DNA from: Flavobacteriaceae bacterium
Lineage (GTDB): Bacteria; Bacteroidota; Bacteroidia; Flavobacteriales; Flavobacteriaceae
Direction: 5' to 3'
Length of the DNA: 43,982 nt
NCBI GenBank assembly: GCA_018608425.1
Contig: JABAZL010000189.1
Location: 1 to 43,982 of the forward strand
Shown: positions 9,472 to 36,014 of the stretch, piece after piece
Layout of the letters: each line of letters opens with the position of its first letter
Position numbering within the stretch: the stretch's first letter is position 1
Program-made: the position numbers and the translations under genes
Notes under the pieces: generated by a model
The model's database searches: none
The model's input: only the letters and a program-made list of their open reading frames with translations
Told to the model about the DNA's origin: nothing

Positions 9472-10629
9472 ATGAGTTTTTTAAGAAACAAAATTGATCA
9501 AATAAAAAAGCCTTTTGCTAAAGGCGAAAAGTGGGAAAAATTTGCTCCGGCTGTTAACGCATTTGACACTTTTTTATTTGTGCCAAATCACACCACACAC
9601 AAAGGAGCTCACATTCGTGATGCTGTAGATTTAAAGCGAACGATGGTAACCGTAATCATAGCACTTTTACCTGCCTTGATTTATGGAATATACAATACAG
9701 GGTATCAATATTTCATCCAAACTGGAGAAGCGTTCACTTTCTTAGACGCTTTCATCCACGGTTCATGGAAAATTGTTCCTATGATTATCGTGTCATATGT
9801 AGTCGGATTAACCATTGAATTTATTTTTGCGATCTACAGAGGCCACGAAGTAAATGAGGGGTACTTGGTTACTGGACTTTTAATTCCAATGATTATGCCA
9901 GTTGATATTCCCTTATGGATGGTCGGAATTTCTACTGCCTTTGCAGTATTGATTGCAAAAGAAGCTTTTGGTGGAACTGGGATGAATATTTTGAATCCTG
10001 CGCTTACCGCTCGTGCCTTTGCCTTTTTTGCTTATCCTACCTATATGTCAGGAAACAAAGTATGGGTTTCAGAAGCATCGAACGTAGATGCTATTTCTGG
10101 AGAAACAATTTTAGGGTCACTAGCAGCGGGTAACGATGTAAGTTATTCAATGCTCGAAATGTTCCAAGGATCTATACCCGGTTCGATTGCAGAGACATCT
10201 GCTTTGTGGATTGCGGTTGGAGCACTTATTTTGATATATACTGGTGTTGGTAGCTGGCGTATTATTGTTGGAGGAATTTTAGGAGCTGCAGTAATGGGCT
10301 TCTTGTTTAACCTTTGGGGTGCAAATGCGCTTATGAGTTTTTCTTGGATGAACCACTTAGTAGTTGGAGGTTTTGCTTTCGGTATTGTCTTTATGGCAAC
10401 TGATCCAGTATCTGCTGCACAAACCAATAAAGGAAAATGGATTTATGGAATTTTGGTTGGAATCTTCTGCATTCTGATTCGAGTATTCAACCCAGCATAC
10501 CCAGAAGGTGTGATGCTTGCAATTCTTTTAATGAATGTGTTTGCACCAACAATTGATCATTATGTAGTTGAAGCGAATATTTCTAAACGTAAAAAACGTT
10601 GGGCATCAACTCAACTAAAAACAGCTTAA
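9472..10629 (+). CDS. nqrB: Na+-translocating NADH:quinone reductase subunit B
   Basis: Multi-TM RnfD/NqrB family; FGGTGMNILNPALTARAF; SWMNHLVVGGFAFGIVFMATDPVSAAQT. Confidence 0.96.
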   Translation: MSFLRNKIDQIKKPFAKGEKWEKFAPAVNAFDTFLFVPNHTTHKGAHIRDAVDLKRTMVTVIIALLPALIYGIYNTGYQYFIQTGEAFTFLDAFIHGSWKIVPMIIVSYVVGLTIEFIFAIYRGHEVNEGYLVTGLLIPMIMPVDIPLWMVGISTAFAVLIAKEAFGGTGMNILNPALTARAFAFFAYPTYMSGNKVWVSEASNVDAISGETILGSLAAGNDVSYSMLEMFQGSIPGSIAETSALWIAVGALILIYTGVGSWRIIVGGILGAAVMGFLFNLWGANALMSFSWMNHLVVGGFAFGIVFMATDPVSAAQTNKGKWIYGILVGIFCILIRVFNPAYPEGVMLAILLMNVFAPTIDHYVVEANISKRKKRWASTQLKTA

Positions 10630-21672: not shown

Positions 21673-22878
21673 TCAATTGGAATAGGCTTGAAGCGCTTTT
21701 TCTAAGATTGATGCCGAGCGTAATAAATCTTTTTCATTGAGAACAAAGCCAATCCGAATTTGTTTTTTCCCATAACCAGGTGTAGAATAAAAACCTGCTG
21801 CAGGCGCAAACATTACCGTTTCGTTTTCATCGCTGAAATCGGTTAGTAGCCATTTAGAAAAAACCTCTGCGTCATCAACCGGTAATTCTACAATACAATA
21901 AAAAGCTCCTCTTGGATCGGATACTTTTACTCCGTCAATTTGTTCAAGAGCTGTCATTAAGATGTTCTTGCGCGCAGTGTATTCTTTTTTAACCGCTAAT
22001 AAATAACTCGCATCTGAATTGATTGCAGCCTCACTAGCTAGGAGGGAGTAGGTTGCAGGAGACAAACGTACGTGTGCAAATTTGAGAGCTGTTGCGATTA
22101 AGGCTTTATTTTTTGAAACAATACATCCTATTCGCGCACCACAAAGGCTGTAACGTTTAGAAACGGAATCGATCATTATGGCGTGATCTTTGAGCCTTTC
22201 TGATTGTAAAACAGAATAAAATTCGGTAACATCATCATGAATAAATTCACGATATACTTCATCAGCAATTAAAAAGATGTTGTGTTTGAGAGCGAGCTCA
22301 CCAAGGGCTTCAACTTCCTCTTGTTTATATAAATATCCAGTTGGGTTACATGGATTACAAATTAAAATTGCTTTAGTTTTAGTTGTGATTTTTGCTTCAA
22401 TTGATGCAATAGAAGGGAGACGAAATTGCTCTTCAAAAAGCGAGTGTACTGGGACTACTTTAATGTTTGAAGCAGCTGCAAACCCATTGTAGTTTGCATA
22501 AAAAGGTTCTGGAATTATAACCTCATCATCAACATCGCAAATACAGCTAAGCGTAAAAGAAATTGCTTCGCTGGCTCCAGCTGTAACGATGATATCCTGA
22601 GGATTAACATCGATTTTGTTTTTTGAGTAATAAGAACACAAAGACTGTCTAAAACCTAAAGTCCCTTCTGAAGGCCCATAAGCAAGTAAGTCTAGTTCAC
22701 TTTTTTGTACTGCATCAATAGCTTCTTTGGGTGATGCTACATCGGGTTGACCAATATTAAGGTGAAATACATGTGTACCCCGAGCCTTGGCTTGTACTGC
22801 AAATTGGACAAGTTTTCTTATTGGCGATTCTGGAAGATCTTTTCCTTTTCGGGATAAAGTTGGTGTTGTTGATTGCAT
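21673..22878 (-). CDS. PLP-dependent class I/II aminotransferase
   Basis: LNIGQPDVASP, CNPCNPTGYLY, DSVSKRYSLCGARIG; start moved to MQSTTPTLSRKG. Confidence 0.9.
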   Translation of the reverse strand: MQSTTPTLSRKGKDLPESPIRKLVQFAVQAKARGTHVFHLNIGQPDVASPKEAIDAVQKSELDLLAYGPSEGTLGFRQSLCSYYSKNKIDVNPQDIIVTAGASEAISFTLSCICDVDDEVIIPEPFYANYNGFAAASNIKVVPVHSLFEEQFRLPSIASIEAKITTKTKAILICNPCNPTGYLYKQEEVEALGELALKHNIFLIADEVYREFIHDDVTEFYSVLQSERLKDHAIMIDSVSKRYSLCGARIGCIVSKNKALIATALKFAHVRLSPATYSLLASEAAINSDASYLLAVKKEYTARKNILMTALEQIDGVKVSDPRGAFYCIVELPVDDAEVFSKWLLTDFSDENETVMFAPAAGFYSTPGYGKKQIRIGFVLNEKDLLRSASILEKALQAYSN

Positions 22879-23016
22879 ACACAAATATCGAAAAAAAAAC
22901 AAGGTTCTAATTGTTTGGAATGTTTTTTGTTAACTTTAATGTGTATTCTTTTTGTTTTGTATTTCATTAGTGCTAAAACATTGAAATTCAATAGATAAAC
23001 TTTAATTGCCACCCCC

Positions 23017-24351
23017 ATGAAGCAATCCCTAGTTTTTATACTCCCGTTATTTCTACTCTTTGGTATTATTCAAACTCATGCGCAATCTGATTTTCTATTT
23101 TCTGATGGAAGTAACAAACGCACTTTTTCTTTTGAATCCGTAAATAATTTGATTGTTGTTCCTGTAAAAATCAATGGAGTTACTTTCAGTTTTATTCTAG
23201 ACTCTGGAGTGAATAGGACCATTTTATTCAATAATGATTTAATTTCTGAACTTCAACTTAAGAATAAAACGAGCATCAATTTACGCGGTTTCTCAAATTC
23301 TGAATCAATAAAAGCTTTTAAAGTAGAAGCCAGTCTTCTTGAAATTGACCGCTTGAAAAGTTTTAACCATGAAATTTTATTGCTGGAAGAAGAAAATTTA
23401 AGTTTTAGCCAGCGTATGTGAACTCAGATTGATGGAATTCTAGGAGCTTCGCTTTTTAAGGACTACAAAATTACTGTGAACTACAATACAGAACGCTTGC
23501 GAATAGAGCGATCAGAAGAAAAAACAATTTCTTGCAGAAAATGTAGTGTTCTTCCCATTCGTTTTAGAAATAGTAAACCACTAGTTCGTGGGAGCGTCAC
23601 TCAAGAAAATGGAACAACAATTCAAGGCGACTTCCTGATTGATAGAGGTTCTAGTGATGCGCTTTGGCTTTTCGATCAGCATGATAAAATAGAAAAACCT
23701 GCTTCTTTTTTTCCAGACTTTTTAGGGATTGGTATCAATGGAGATGTATTTGGAGACCGGAGTAAAATTAAATCATTTCGTTTAGGAAACTTCAAGTTGA
23801 ATCAGGTAAAAGCTGCTTTTCCAGACAGTTTAGGCTCCTATAAAGTGTTGGTCGATTCAAACAGAATTGGCAGTATTGGCGGAGAGCTTCTGAAGCGCTT
23901 CAAAGTGACTTTTGATTACCCAAATAAGCAAGTTGTTTTTAAAAAGACTTCCAAAACATTCGATAAGTTTTACTATAATTTAAGCGGTATTGAACTGCAA
24001 TATAAAGGTGAAAGTTTAGTGAAAGAAAAGGTTTCTAGCTTTCAATCAAGAGATGTATCTGAAAATGAGAGTCAAAACAGAGGAATCAAGATTTATTTGT
24101 CCCAGCTATATCGGTTGCGATTTAGACCCATTATTGAAATTGCAAATCTTCGAGTGAATTCACCAGCAGCATTAGCTGGACTGAAAGAGGGGGATATTAT
24201 AACGGAAGTGAATGGAAAAAGAGTTGGTGATATTGATTTACAAGGGATAATGCATCAGTTTCAGAAAAAACCCGGTGCAAAAATAAAATTGAGAATAGTG
24301 CGGGCAGGCGTAAAATTCAATTACAAATTTATTCTTAAAGCAGTTCTATGA
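23017..24351 (+). pseudogene. Secreted retropepsin-like aspartyl protease with C-terminal PDZ domain, interrupted by an in-frame TGA at 23419-23421
   Basis: ORFs 23017-23421 and 23476-24351 are in the same frame with a single TGA between them. Signal peptide + FILDSGVNRTILF in the first half; IDGILGASLFKDYKITVNY, LIDRGSSDALWLF and a PDZ domain (SPAALAGLKEGDIITEVNGKRVGDI) in the second. Confidence 0.75.
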
Positions 24352-24735
24352 AGAGGGTTGAACTGTTCCTTTTATCTTTAGGGAAACAATTGGTGTTTCT
24401 ACAGCATTGGAATTTACGGTGATTGTTTTGCGAATTGGTCCCACTCGATTGGTGTCGTATTTAACTTGAATTTCACCTGCCTCTCCTGGAGCTATTGGTG
24501 CTTCTGGTTTTTTAGGAATAGTACATCCACAAGAAGAATATACTTTGGTTATTTCTAAGGGCATATCTCCCGAATTGATAAATGTAAATATGCGAATCCC
24601 ATCGCTCCCCTTAATGATTTCTCCATAGTCCACTACATTAGACTTGAACTCTATTTTTGGACCTGCTGTTTGTGAAAATCCATTGAAACTGAATGCAAGA
24701 AATAAACTGAAAATGGTTATTATATTTTTCATCAT
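24346..24735 (-). CDS. DUF1573 domain-containing secreted protein
   Basis: Signal peptide; VDYGEIIKGSDGIRIFTFINSGDMPLEITKVYSSCGCTIPKKPEAPIAPGEAGEIQVKYDT is typical DUF1573. Confidence 0.92.
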   Translation of the reverse strand: MMKNIITIFSLFLAFSFNGFSQTAGPKIEFKSNVVDYGEIIKGSDGIRIFTFINSGDMPLEITKVYSSCGCTIPKKPEAPIAPGEAGEIQVKYDTNRVGPIRKTITVNSNAVETPIVSLKIKGTVQPSS

Positions 24736-24809: not shown

Positions 24810-24839
24810 TTTGTAATCCCTTTAAGAAAATTACTTTTG
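24810..24839 (+). promoter_or_regulatory. Bacteroidetes-type promoter for valS (TTTG-N18-TACTTTTG)
   Basis: TTTG at 24810-24813 and TACTTTTG at 24832-24839, 27 nt upstream of the inferred valS ATG. Confidence 0.65.
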
Positions 24840-24866
24840 TTATTTATAACAAAAACCAGACCATTT

Positions 24867-27497
24867 ATGTCGATTTCCTCAAAATTTGAAGCCTCAACTG
24901 TCGAACAGAAATGGTATGACTATTGGCTTACTAATAAATATTTTGCTTCTAAACCAGACGATCGTCCAGCATATTCGATTGTAATTCCACCACCAAACGT
25001 GACAGGAATTCTTCATATGGGCCATATGTTGAATGTATCTTTACAAGATATTTTAATTCGTAGAGCTAGAATGCAAGGGTTTAATGCTTGTTGGGTTCCT
25101 GGAACGGATCACGCTTCAATTGCAACCGAAGCCAAAGTAGTAGCACGCCTCAAAGAACAAGGGATTGATAAAAACGATTTAACTCGAGAAGAGTTTTTGG
25201 GTCATGCTTGGGATTGGACTGAAGAATATGGTGGACTAATTTTAAAGCAATTACAAAAACTAGGCGCCTCATGCGATTGGGATAGAACCAAATTCACATT
25301 AGATGACGATATGTCAGCGTCTGTAATTCAAGTTTTTGTTGACTTATTTAACAAAGGTTTGGTGTATCGAGGATATCGAATGGTAAACTGGGATCCAGAA
25401 GCGCAAACAACTTTGTCTGATGAAGAAGTTATTTATGAAGAGAAACCTGGTTTTTTATATCATATAGCCTACGAAGTTGAAGGAGAAACGAAGCCGCTTA
25501 TTATTGCAACTACACGTCCAGAAACAATTTTTGGTGATACTGCTATTTGTATTCACCCAGAAGATGAACGTTTTCAACATTTAAAAGGAAAGAAAGTAAA
25601 AGTACCTGTAGCCAATCGCTGGATACCCATTGTTCTAGATGACTACGTCGATATGGAATTTGGTACGGGTTGCTTAAAAGTTACACCGGCACATGATATT
25701 AACGATAAGGCTATTGGCGAAAGACACAATTTAGATGTTATTGACATCTTCAATGCTGATGCTACGCTTAACACTCATGGACTTCATTATGAGTCACAAG
25801 ATCGCTTTGTAGTTCGTAAAGCCATTGCCAAAGAATTGGAAGACTTAAACGTATTAGTTAAGAAAGAAGATTATGCGCATAAGGTTGGAACTTCTGAACG
25901 TACAAAGGCTGTAATTGAACCGCGCTTGTCGGATCAGTGGTTTTTGAAGATGGAACAGTTAGCTGAACCTGCAATCAAAGCTGTTCTTGAATCGGAAGAA
26001 GTTGCATTGGTTCCTGCAAAATTTAAGAATACCTATCGTCACTGGATGGAGAATATCCGTGACTGGAATATTTCTCGTCAGTTGTGGTGGGGTCAACAAA
26101 TACCAGCTTACTATTACAGCAATAATCCAGAAGATTTTGTTGTTGCAACTACACCAGAACAAGCTCTTGAGTTAGCGCAAACCAAATCAGCTAATCCTGA
26201 TTTAAAAGCAAGTGATCTTCGTCAAGATAACGACGTATTAGATACTTGGTTCTCTTCTTGGTTGTGGCCAATTTCTGTTTTTGATGGTATTAAAAATCCA
26301 GATAACGAGGAAATAAATTATTACTATCCTACTAGAGACCTAGTAACAGGTCCCGATATTTTGTTTTTCTGGGTTGCACGAATGATTATTTCGGGATACG
26401 AATATAGAAATGAAAAGCCTTTTTCAAAAGTATATCTAACCGGCCTTGTACGTGATAAGCAAGGACGAAAAATGTCCAAGCAATTAGGAAATTCTCCAGA
26501 CGCCTTAAAACTAATCGAAGATTTTGGTGCTGATGCTGTTCGAGTAGGACTTATGTTGAGTTCTGCCGCCGGAAACGATTTGTTATTCGATGAAAGTCTA
26601 TGCCAACAAGGGAAGAATTTTTCTAATAAAATATGGAACGCTTACCGCTTGATTGAAGGTTGGGAAGTTGACGAAAACAGAAACCAATCGGTTGTAAGTA
26701 AAGAAGCCTTGCATTGGTATGCTCAAAAATTCCAGCAGTCGTTAGAGTTGATCAACGACCATTTTGATAAATACCGTATTTCTGATGCTATGATGACATC
26801 TTACAAGCTAATCTGGGATGATTTTTGCTCTTGGCTGCTAGAAGCAATTAAGCCAGCTTATGGAGATCCTATCGATGGGCAAACGTACCGAGAGGTCCGT
26901 GTTTTATTTGAAGAAAACTTAAAACTACTTCACCCGTTCATGCCTTTTCTTACTGAAGAATTGTGGCAAGATATGGAAACACGTTCTGTCGAAGAAGCAT
27001 TAATCGTAATTACGTGGCCAGAGGTTCAGACTTATGACGAAAAACTCATTAATCGTTTTGAAGAAGCTACTGGAGTAATTGGAGGAATTCGAAACTTCAG
27101 AAAAGAAAAAGAACTTGGATTCAAAGAAACTCTTGCTCTTCAGGTAATCGGTTCTACCGAAGCTATTCCCTTTGAATCGTTGGTTCATAAAATGGGACAA
27201 TTGAGTAGTGTGTCTTATGAAGAAACTATATCGGAACAAACTGGAGGTGCATTTCGTGCCAATGGTTTGGAATTCTTTATCCCACTTGAAGGGAAGATTG
27301 ATGTAGAAAAAGAACGCCTCAAATTACAAGAAGAACTGAAATATGCAAACGGTTTCTTGACGTCGGTTCAGAAGAAACTAGCGAATGAGCGTTTCGTTTC
27401 AAACGCGCCTGAACAAGTTTTGGCGAATGAACGAAAGAAGGAAGCAGATGCTTTAGAGAAAATTGAGGTAATAGAAAAAAGTTTGGCAGCTCTTTAA
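24867..27497 (+). CDS. valS: Valyl-tRNA synthetase
   Basis: PPPNVTGILHMGHMLN (HIGH), GRKMSKQLGNSPD (KMSKS), C-terminal coiled coil. Start moved to MSISSKFEAS, downstream of the promoter. Confidence 0.97.
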   Translation: MSISSKFEASTVEQKWYDYWLTNKYFASKPDDRPAYSIVIPPPNVTGILHMGHMLNVSLQDILIRRARMQGFNACWVPGTDHASIATEAKVVARLKEQGIDKNDLTREEFLGHAWDWTEEYGGLILKQLQKLGASCDWDRTKFTLDDDMSASVIQVFVDLFNKGLVYRGYRMVNWDPEAQTTLSDEEVIYEEKPGFLYHIAYEVEGETKPLIIATTRPETIFGDTAICIHPEDERFQHLKGKKVKVPVANRWIPIVLDDYVDMEFGTGCLKVTPAHDINDKAIGERHNLDVIDIFNADATLNTHGLHYESQDRFVVRKAIAKELEDLNVLVKKEDYAHKVGTSERTKAVIEPRLSDQWFLKMEQLAEPAIKAVLESEEVALVPAKFKNTYRHWMENIRDWNISRQLWWGQQIPAYYYSNNPEDFVVATTPEQALELAQTKSANPDLKASDLRQDNDVLDTWFSSWLWPISVFDGIKNPDNEEINYYYPTRDLVTGPDILFFWVARMIISGYEYRNEKPFSKVYLTGLVRDKQGRKMSKQLGNSPDALKLIEDFGADAVRVGLMLSSAAGNDLLFDESLCQQGKNFSNKIWNAYRLIEGWEVDENRNQSVVSKEALHWYAQKFQQSLELINDHFDKYRISDAMMTSYKLIWDDFCSWLLEAIKPAYGDPIDGQTYREVRVLFEENLKLLHPFMPFLTEELWQDMETRSVEEALIVITWPEVQTYDEKLINRFEEATGVIGGIRNFRKEKELGFKETLALQVIGSTEAIPFESLVHKMGQLSSVSYEETISEQTGGAFRANGLEFFIPLEGKIDVEKERLKLQEELKYANGFLTSVQKKLANERFVSNAPEQVLANERKKEADALEKIEVIEKSLAAL

Positions 27498-35358: not shown

Positions 35359-35462
35359 TTGATTAGGATTATAATAGTTCTAAAATTCTTATGTAAAGGT
35401 AATTGTTTTCCATCGTTCAAAACAAGAGGGATTTATTATCTTTACGGCATATTGAAATCACA

Positions 35463-36014
35463 ATGAATTTTTTACGTTTCTTTTTTAGTAAACTCTTTGT
35501 AAAGCAATTGCTTTGGGCTGGCCTCTTAGTGGTATTGTTCATTGGGTTGTGTTTTTGGGGTTTAAACCAATATACTCAGCATGGAAAGCATACTCAAGTT
35601 CCTGATATTGAAGCACTCTCTTTAGAAACAGTTGCTTCTGTTTTGGAACAATATGAACTGCGGTATGAAGTGCTTGATTCTGCAAAATTTAACCCCAACT
35701 ACCCACCTTTTTCTGTAATAGAGCAACTCCCAACTGCTGGTTCAGACGTGAAGCAAGGCAGAAAAATCTACCTTACAGTCAACCCTTCTGGTTATCGAAA
35801 GTTGAGTGTCCCCAACGTAATACAAATCACCAAGCGTAATGCTGAAACCCGACTTACCGCTGTAGGATTTGAGCTGGGCGAAATTAGTTACCGCAACAAC
35901 ATAGGAAAGGATATGGTTCTCGAAATCCGTTATCAAGGAGATAAAATCGAGCCCGGAGTTGTCCTTCCTAAAACTTCAAAAATAGACTTAGTCTTAGGAA
36001 ATGGAAAACGATAA
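35463..36014 (+). CDS. PASTA domain-containing membrane protein
   Basis: N-terminal TM, then PASTA-type repeats (PPFSVIEQLPTAGSDVKQGRKIYLTVNP; SVPNVIQITKRNAETRLTAVGFELGEISY). Start at MNFLRFFF. Confidence 0.85.
   Translation: MNFLRFFFSKLFVKQLLWAGLLVVLFIGLCFWGLNQYTQHGKHTQVPDIEALSLETVASVLEQYELRYEVLDSAKFNPNYPPFSVIEQLPTAGSDVKQGRKIYLTVNPSGYRKLSVPNVIQITKRNAETRLTAVGFELGEISYRNNIGKDMVLEIRYQGDKIEPGVVLPKTSKIDLVLGNGKR

Follow-up and report, generated by a model that had tools for sequence, protein, structure and literature searches.

A single in-frame stop codon interrupts a PDZ-domain aspartyl protease gene at a locus of repeated gene loss in small-genome marine Flavobacteriaceae

The interrupted gene and its predicted product

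The window analysed here is a stretch of 43,982 nucleotides (GenBank assembly GCA_018608425.1, contig JABAZL010000189.1) from the draft genome of a Flavobacteriaceae bacterium (G000; 72% complete, 190 contigs). Its plus strand carries, at positions 23017 to 24351, a gene of 444 codons plus stop. Homology to a protein of genome G018 identifies its product as an exported aspartyl protease made up of two lobes and a C-terminal PDZ domain. Reading from the ATG at 23017, the sole stop before the terminal codon at 24349-24351 is a TGA in the same frame at 23419-23421, codon 135 of 444, and this TGA is all that separates the open reading frames 23017-23421 and 23476-24351. The GTG at 23476 is simply the first start-type codon past the TGA, with homology continuing unbroken from 23422. 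Frame-aware alignment against the nearest ortholog covers all 444 codons with one stop and zero frameshifts, and the two pieces together match the single intact 444-aa protein of G018 over its full length at 91% identity, within an identical gene order. The first-pass annotation had proposed one gene split by a single in-frame TGA, and this continuous alignment to an intact copy bears it out; the reading as two separate genes is rejected on the continuous homology to one intact protein. The orphaned 3′ part (23422-24351, plus strand) comprises the rest of lobe 1, lobe 2 and the PDZ domain and lacks a signal peptide. A scan for sigma-70 promoters gave no score above those of shuffled sequences.

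The gene is framed by neighbours, named from their sequences, that serve as locus anchors: a PLP-dependent aminotransferase-like gene upstream (21673-22902, minus strand) and, downstream, a gene for a 129-aa DUF1573-like protein (24346-24735, minus strand), the last 6 bases of which, at its 3′ end, overlap the protease stop. A valS-like gene (24837-27497, plus strand) forms the outer anchor.

In the intact ortholog Pfam detects PF13650 (Asp_protease_2) in two stretches, followed by PDZ_6, PDZ_2 and PDZ above cutoff, in agreement with the PDZ aspartyl protease identity originally assigned. The window copy begins with a signal-peptide-like N-terminus (residues 1-23, MKQSLVFILPLFLLFGIIQTHAQ; 23017-23085, plus strand), suggested by its sequence and by a helix at residues 2-20 of the model, and retains the lobe-1 catalytic-type motif D62-S-G (23200-23208, plus strand), in which D and G are invariant and the middle residue is S or T in 25/25 intact homologs; its PDZ domain lies at residues about 353-440 (24073-24336, plus strand). 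The AlphaFold model of the intact ortholog (mean pLDDT 84, pTM 0.80) resembles retropepsin-like and pepsin-like proteases in its predicted single-chain two-lobe fold, with Foldseek matches to 9iy9, a putative Bacteroides fragilis endopeptidase (E 1.5e-13), as well as to HIV protease in its tethered dimer form and to pepsin-like plasmepsins (both at E about 1e-11). With about 12-16% identity, however, this resemblance is at the level of fold only, and the protease described here adds a PDZ domain. The ancestral protein was thus probably a putatively active aspartic protease that was exported and combined, in one chain, two lobes and a PDZ domain. Our literature search for PDZ aspartyl proteases found only a survey of microbial PDZ proteins, which lists the aspartyl-protease members as functionally uncharacterised (PMC6411480).

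The gene has in common with this PF13650 and PDZ family the signal-peptide-like start and the two lobes followed by PDZ, and nearly all homologs carry a D-[ST]-G motif in both lobes. The window copy, in contrast, is truncated after 134 residues and, while keeping DSG in lobe 1, reads DRG in lobe 2 (23641-23649, plus strand), where codon 210 is AGA as opposed to AGT in G018 and AGC in G003. D209 and G211 are invariant in intact homologs, and position 210 is S or T in 22/25 and N, L or M in the other three; arginine at this position occurs in 0/25 intact homologs and is confined to the window copy (S210R). At the stop itself, codon 135 is GGA in the two nearest relatives, G018 and G003, and the residue is Gly in 24/25 intact homologs and Asp in the remaining one, so that the single GGA to TGA substitution proposed in the first-pass annotation, from the Gly usual at this position in related Bacteroidetes proteins, matches the homologs. 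At its 72% completeness, the window genome yielded only this one copy of the PDZ protease. This genome does encode a separate single-lobe Asp_protease_2 protein (contig C29, 3517-3807; L112, open frame of 159 aa), which does not share the arrangement of two lobes and PDZ.

Fate of the locus across the genus

The closest genomes belong to Candidatus Arcticimaribacter (NS5 marine group), which comprises small-genome seawater bacteria, with genomes of about 2 Mb reported for the genus (NS5_F, PMC9122927). We compared 19 genomes, including that of the window, with one genome per species. As far as the neighbours can be read, the locus is syntenic in 19/19, in the order aminotransferase-like gene, protease position, DUF1573-like gene and valS; the aminotransferase-like gene adjoins the locus wherever its contig sequence is present, including in all five genomes from which the protease gene has gone.

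Seven of the 19 genomes have an apparently open protease copy, seven have copies broken by differing lesions, and five have lost the gene with both neighbours kept. The open copies are those of G018, G013, G008, G002, G004, G014 (split over two contigs) and G015 (interrupted by an N gap). What looked like a large deletion in G015 proved to be a gap of Ns in the assembly, and the copy is classed as open; likewise, stops in valS of G002 and G014 were dismissed as lesions, lying upstream of the true start. In the open G015 copy (L038, contig C78) lobe 2 reads D-T-S in place of D-[ST]-G; this copy may be failing too, or the lobe-2 motif may be under weaker constraint there, since the frame that carries DTS is open.

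The broken copies span a wide range of decay. The window copy has one TGA, that of G010 one frameshift, and that of G005 (L003, contig C12, 31278-32609, minus strand) a single TAG at codon 126 together with S63L in the lobe-1 motif, at a position that is Ser or Thr in 25/25 intact homologs. G003 has a 75-codon deletion and two frameshifts, G007 two stops and three frameshifts, G016 six stops and five frameshifts, and G001 only a short remnant. Among the gene-free genomes, G012 (L061, contig C6) keeps a fossil of 19 C-terminal codons (IKLGVLRNGIKHKYKFTLK) between the aminotransferase-like and DUF1573-like genes, and in G006, G009, G011 and G017 only 85-109 bp remain between the neighbours. Non-coding sequence upstream of the former gene is still alignable in G012 and partly in G009; the locus of the latter (L094) lies on a single contig (C1) of 2,034,069 bases. 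As a separate observation, two genes that are intact in the window (9472-10629 and 35403-36014) have homologs on contig C91 of G003 that are each split into two ORFs (L105, 14970-16108, and L104, 1258-1829); these splits are either real lesions or draft-assembly errors.

In a tree built from 11 flanking genes, the intact G018 is sister to the window genome, with the broken G003 next, and broken copies are interspersed among intact ones. G005, G016 and the G007/G001 pair have no common lesion that fits the tree. A frameshift near codon 205 in both G007 and G016 was considered as an ancestral lesion and rejected, as the local sequences differ and G005, the sister of G016, lacks it. On the assumption that the gene was never regained, about 10 losses are needed, and at least 6 are still required when the single-lesion copies (G000, G005, G010) are set aside and weak nodes (60-62%) are allowed for. 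Both this genus-wide loss and the additional change, at codon 210, go beyond the first-pass annotation.

Origin and age of the stop codon

Between the window copy and G018, dS is 0.64 and dN 0.041, giving a dN/dS of 0.064, and downstream of the stop the ratio is 0.055. On the window branch the region downstream of the stop has accumulated 43 synonymous and 8 replacement changes, where about 155 replacements would be expected under neutrality; the best fit puts the unconstrained share of this branch at zero, and at roughly 2.4% at most. Because dN/dS after the stop is as low as over the comparison as a whole, the stop is very young, or else an error or a segregating allele. We looked for relaxed constraint after the stop and saw none; such relaxation is expected only in older pseudogenes, and its absence is no evidence for decay and is not counted as support for it.

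We consider it likely that the window copy is a pseudogene created by a very recent nonsense mutation of ordinary mechanism, in which GGA for Gly135 became TGA, in a gene that is dispensable in this small-genome genus. Of the four options originally offered for the TGA this one fits best, given the intact sister copy at 91% identity, the Gly at the site and the repeated loss in the genus. Since relatives have broken or deleted the gene many separate times, this stop most probably marks the latest stage of an ordinary process of gene loss.

A sequencing or consensus error, with the real population carrying an intact gene, is an unlikely alternative. The lesion is a single base in a draft of 190 contigs, and the stop is flanked by strongly constrained sequence, as it would be in the case of an error. 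Against this, comparison with G003 and G018 revealed no further broken genes in the window, and the sole casualty among about 45 genes is one that relatives have lost repeatedly; a random hit on it is improbable because it makes up about 3% of the window. The copy also carries the radical, non-stop change S210R in a catalytic-type motif, and this second window-only change, from DSG to DRG, disfavours an isolated sequencing error, with the caution that the DTS of the open G015 copy may point to weaker constraint on this motif. G005, whose copy also has just one stop, likewise has a damaged motif (S63L).

Polymorphism within the species, by which the stop segregates, the assembly happened to capture the stop allele and pseudogene status is not fixed, appears improbable to us on the present sampling of one genome per species. 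The very recent age of the stop would suit a segregating loss allele, but such an allele is compatible with a loss in progress and invokes no different mechanism. A functional TGA, whether read through or recoded to give the full-length protein or dividing the gene into pieces that act as separate proteins, is highly improbable in spite of the conservation of both pieces. Stops in relatives lie elsewhere, with none at codon 135, and the frameshifts, deletions and other stops of relatives are not explicable by readthrough; measured against relatives, all other long ORFs in the window are intact under the ordinary code; a near-invariant Gly is lost at the stop; and the downstream piece is missing both a signal peptide and half of lobe 1. 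Readthrough, raised in the first-pass annotation, gained no positive evidence, and the window copy also has DRG in place of DSG. The phase-off allele suggested there is rejected: a single base has been substituted, the site has no repeat tract, and the pattern in the genus is one of progressive erosion and not of switching.

If the nonsense mutation is real, ribosomes would halt at codon 135 and yield a secreted half-lobe whose fold lacks the DGILG part, the downstream frame would not be exported, and no proteolysis would be left. The remnant would be expected to be deleted in time, as in five relatives.

Gene shedding in pelagic flavobacteria

The underlying cause is probably that the small-genome, free-living NS5 lineage no longer needs the protease. 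In our sample of the family most genomes clearly carry an ortholog, but among those listed outside the genus the gene is absent from 19/25 genomes of ≤2.3 Mb versus 25/221 larger ones (Fisher p = 1.2e-11, a value that is indicative only, as the genomes are phylogenetically non-independent and presence was sorted by hand on E-value from a listing). This pattern of absence fits general dispensability in reduced genomes. An unlikely reading is that loss is convergent and perhaps selected, the protease being disadvantageous or redundant in pelagic flavobacteria, with independent small-genome lineages across the family repeatedly inactivating it; on this reading, the changes to catalytic-type motifs in G005 (S63L) and in the window (S210R) would hint that the activity itself is selected against.

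The case resembles genome reduction and streamlining as known from small-genome marine bacteria, in that the gene is intact in relatives with larger genomes and erodes at a fixed locus in stages from one stop to full deletion, although here the process was followed in one gene. A single stop codon is in itself ordinary. The value of this locus lies in its syntenic record, across 19 species, of every stage of gene death, from intact through one stop, several lesions and a short fossil to clean deletion. With family-wide loss that tracks genome size, this uncharacterised protease family offers a tractable test case for gene shedding in pelagic flavobacteria.
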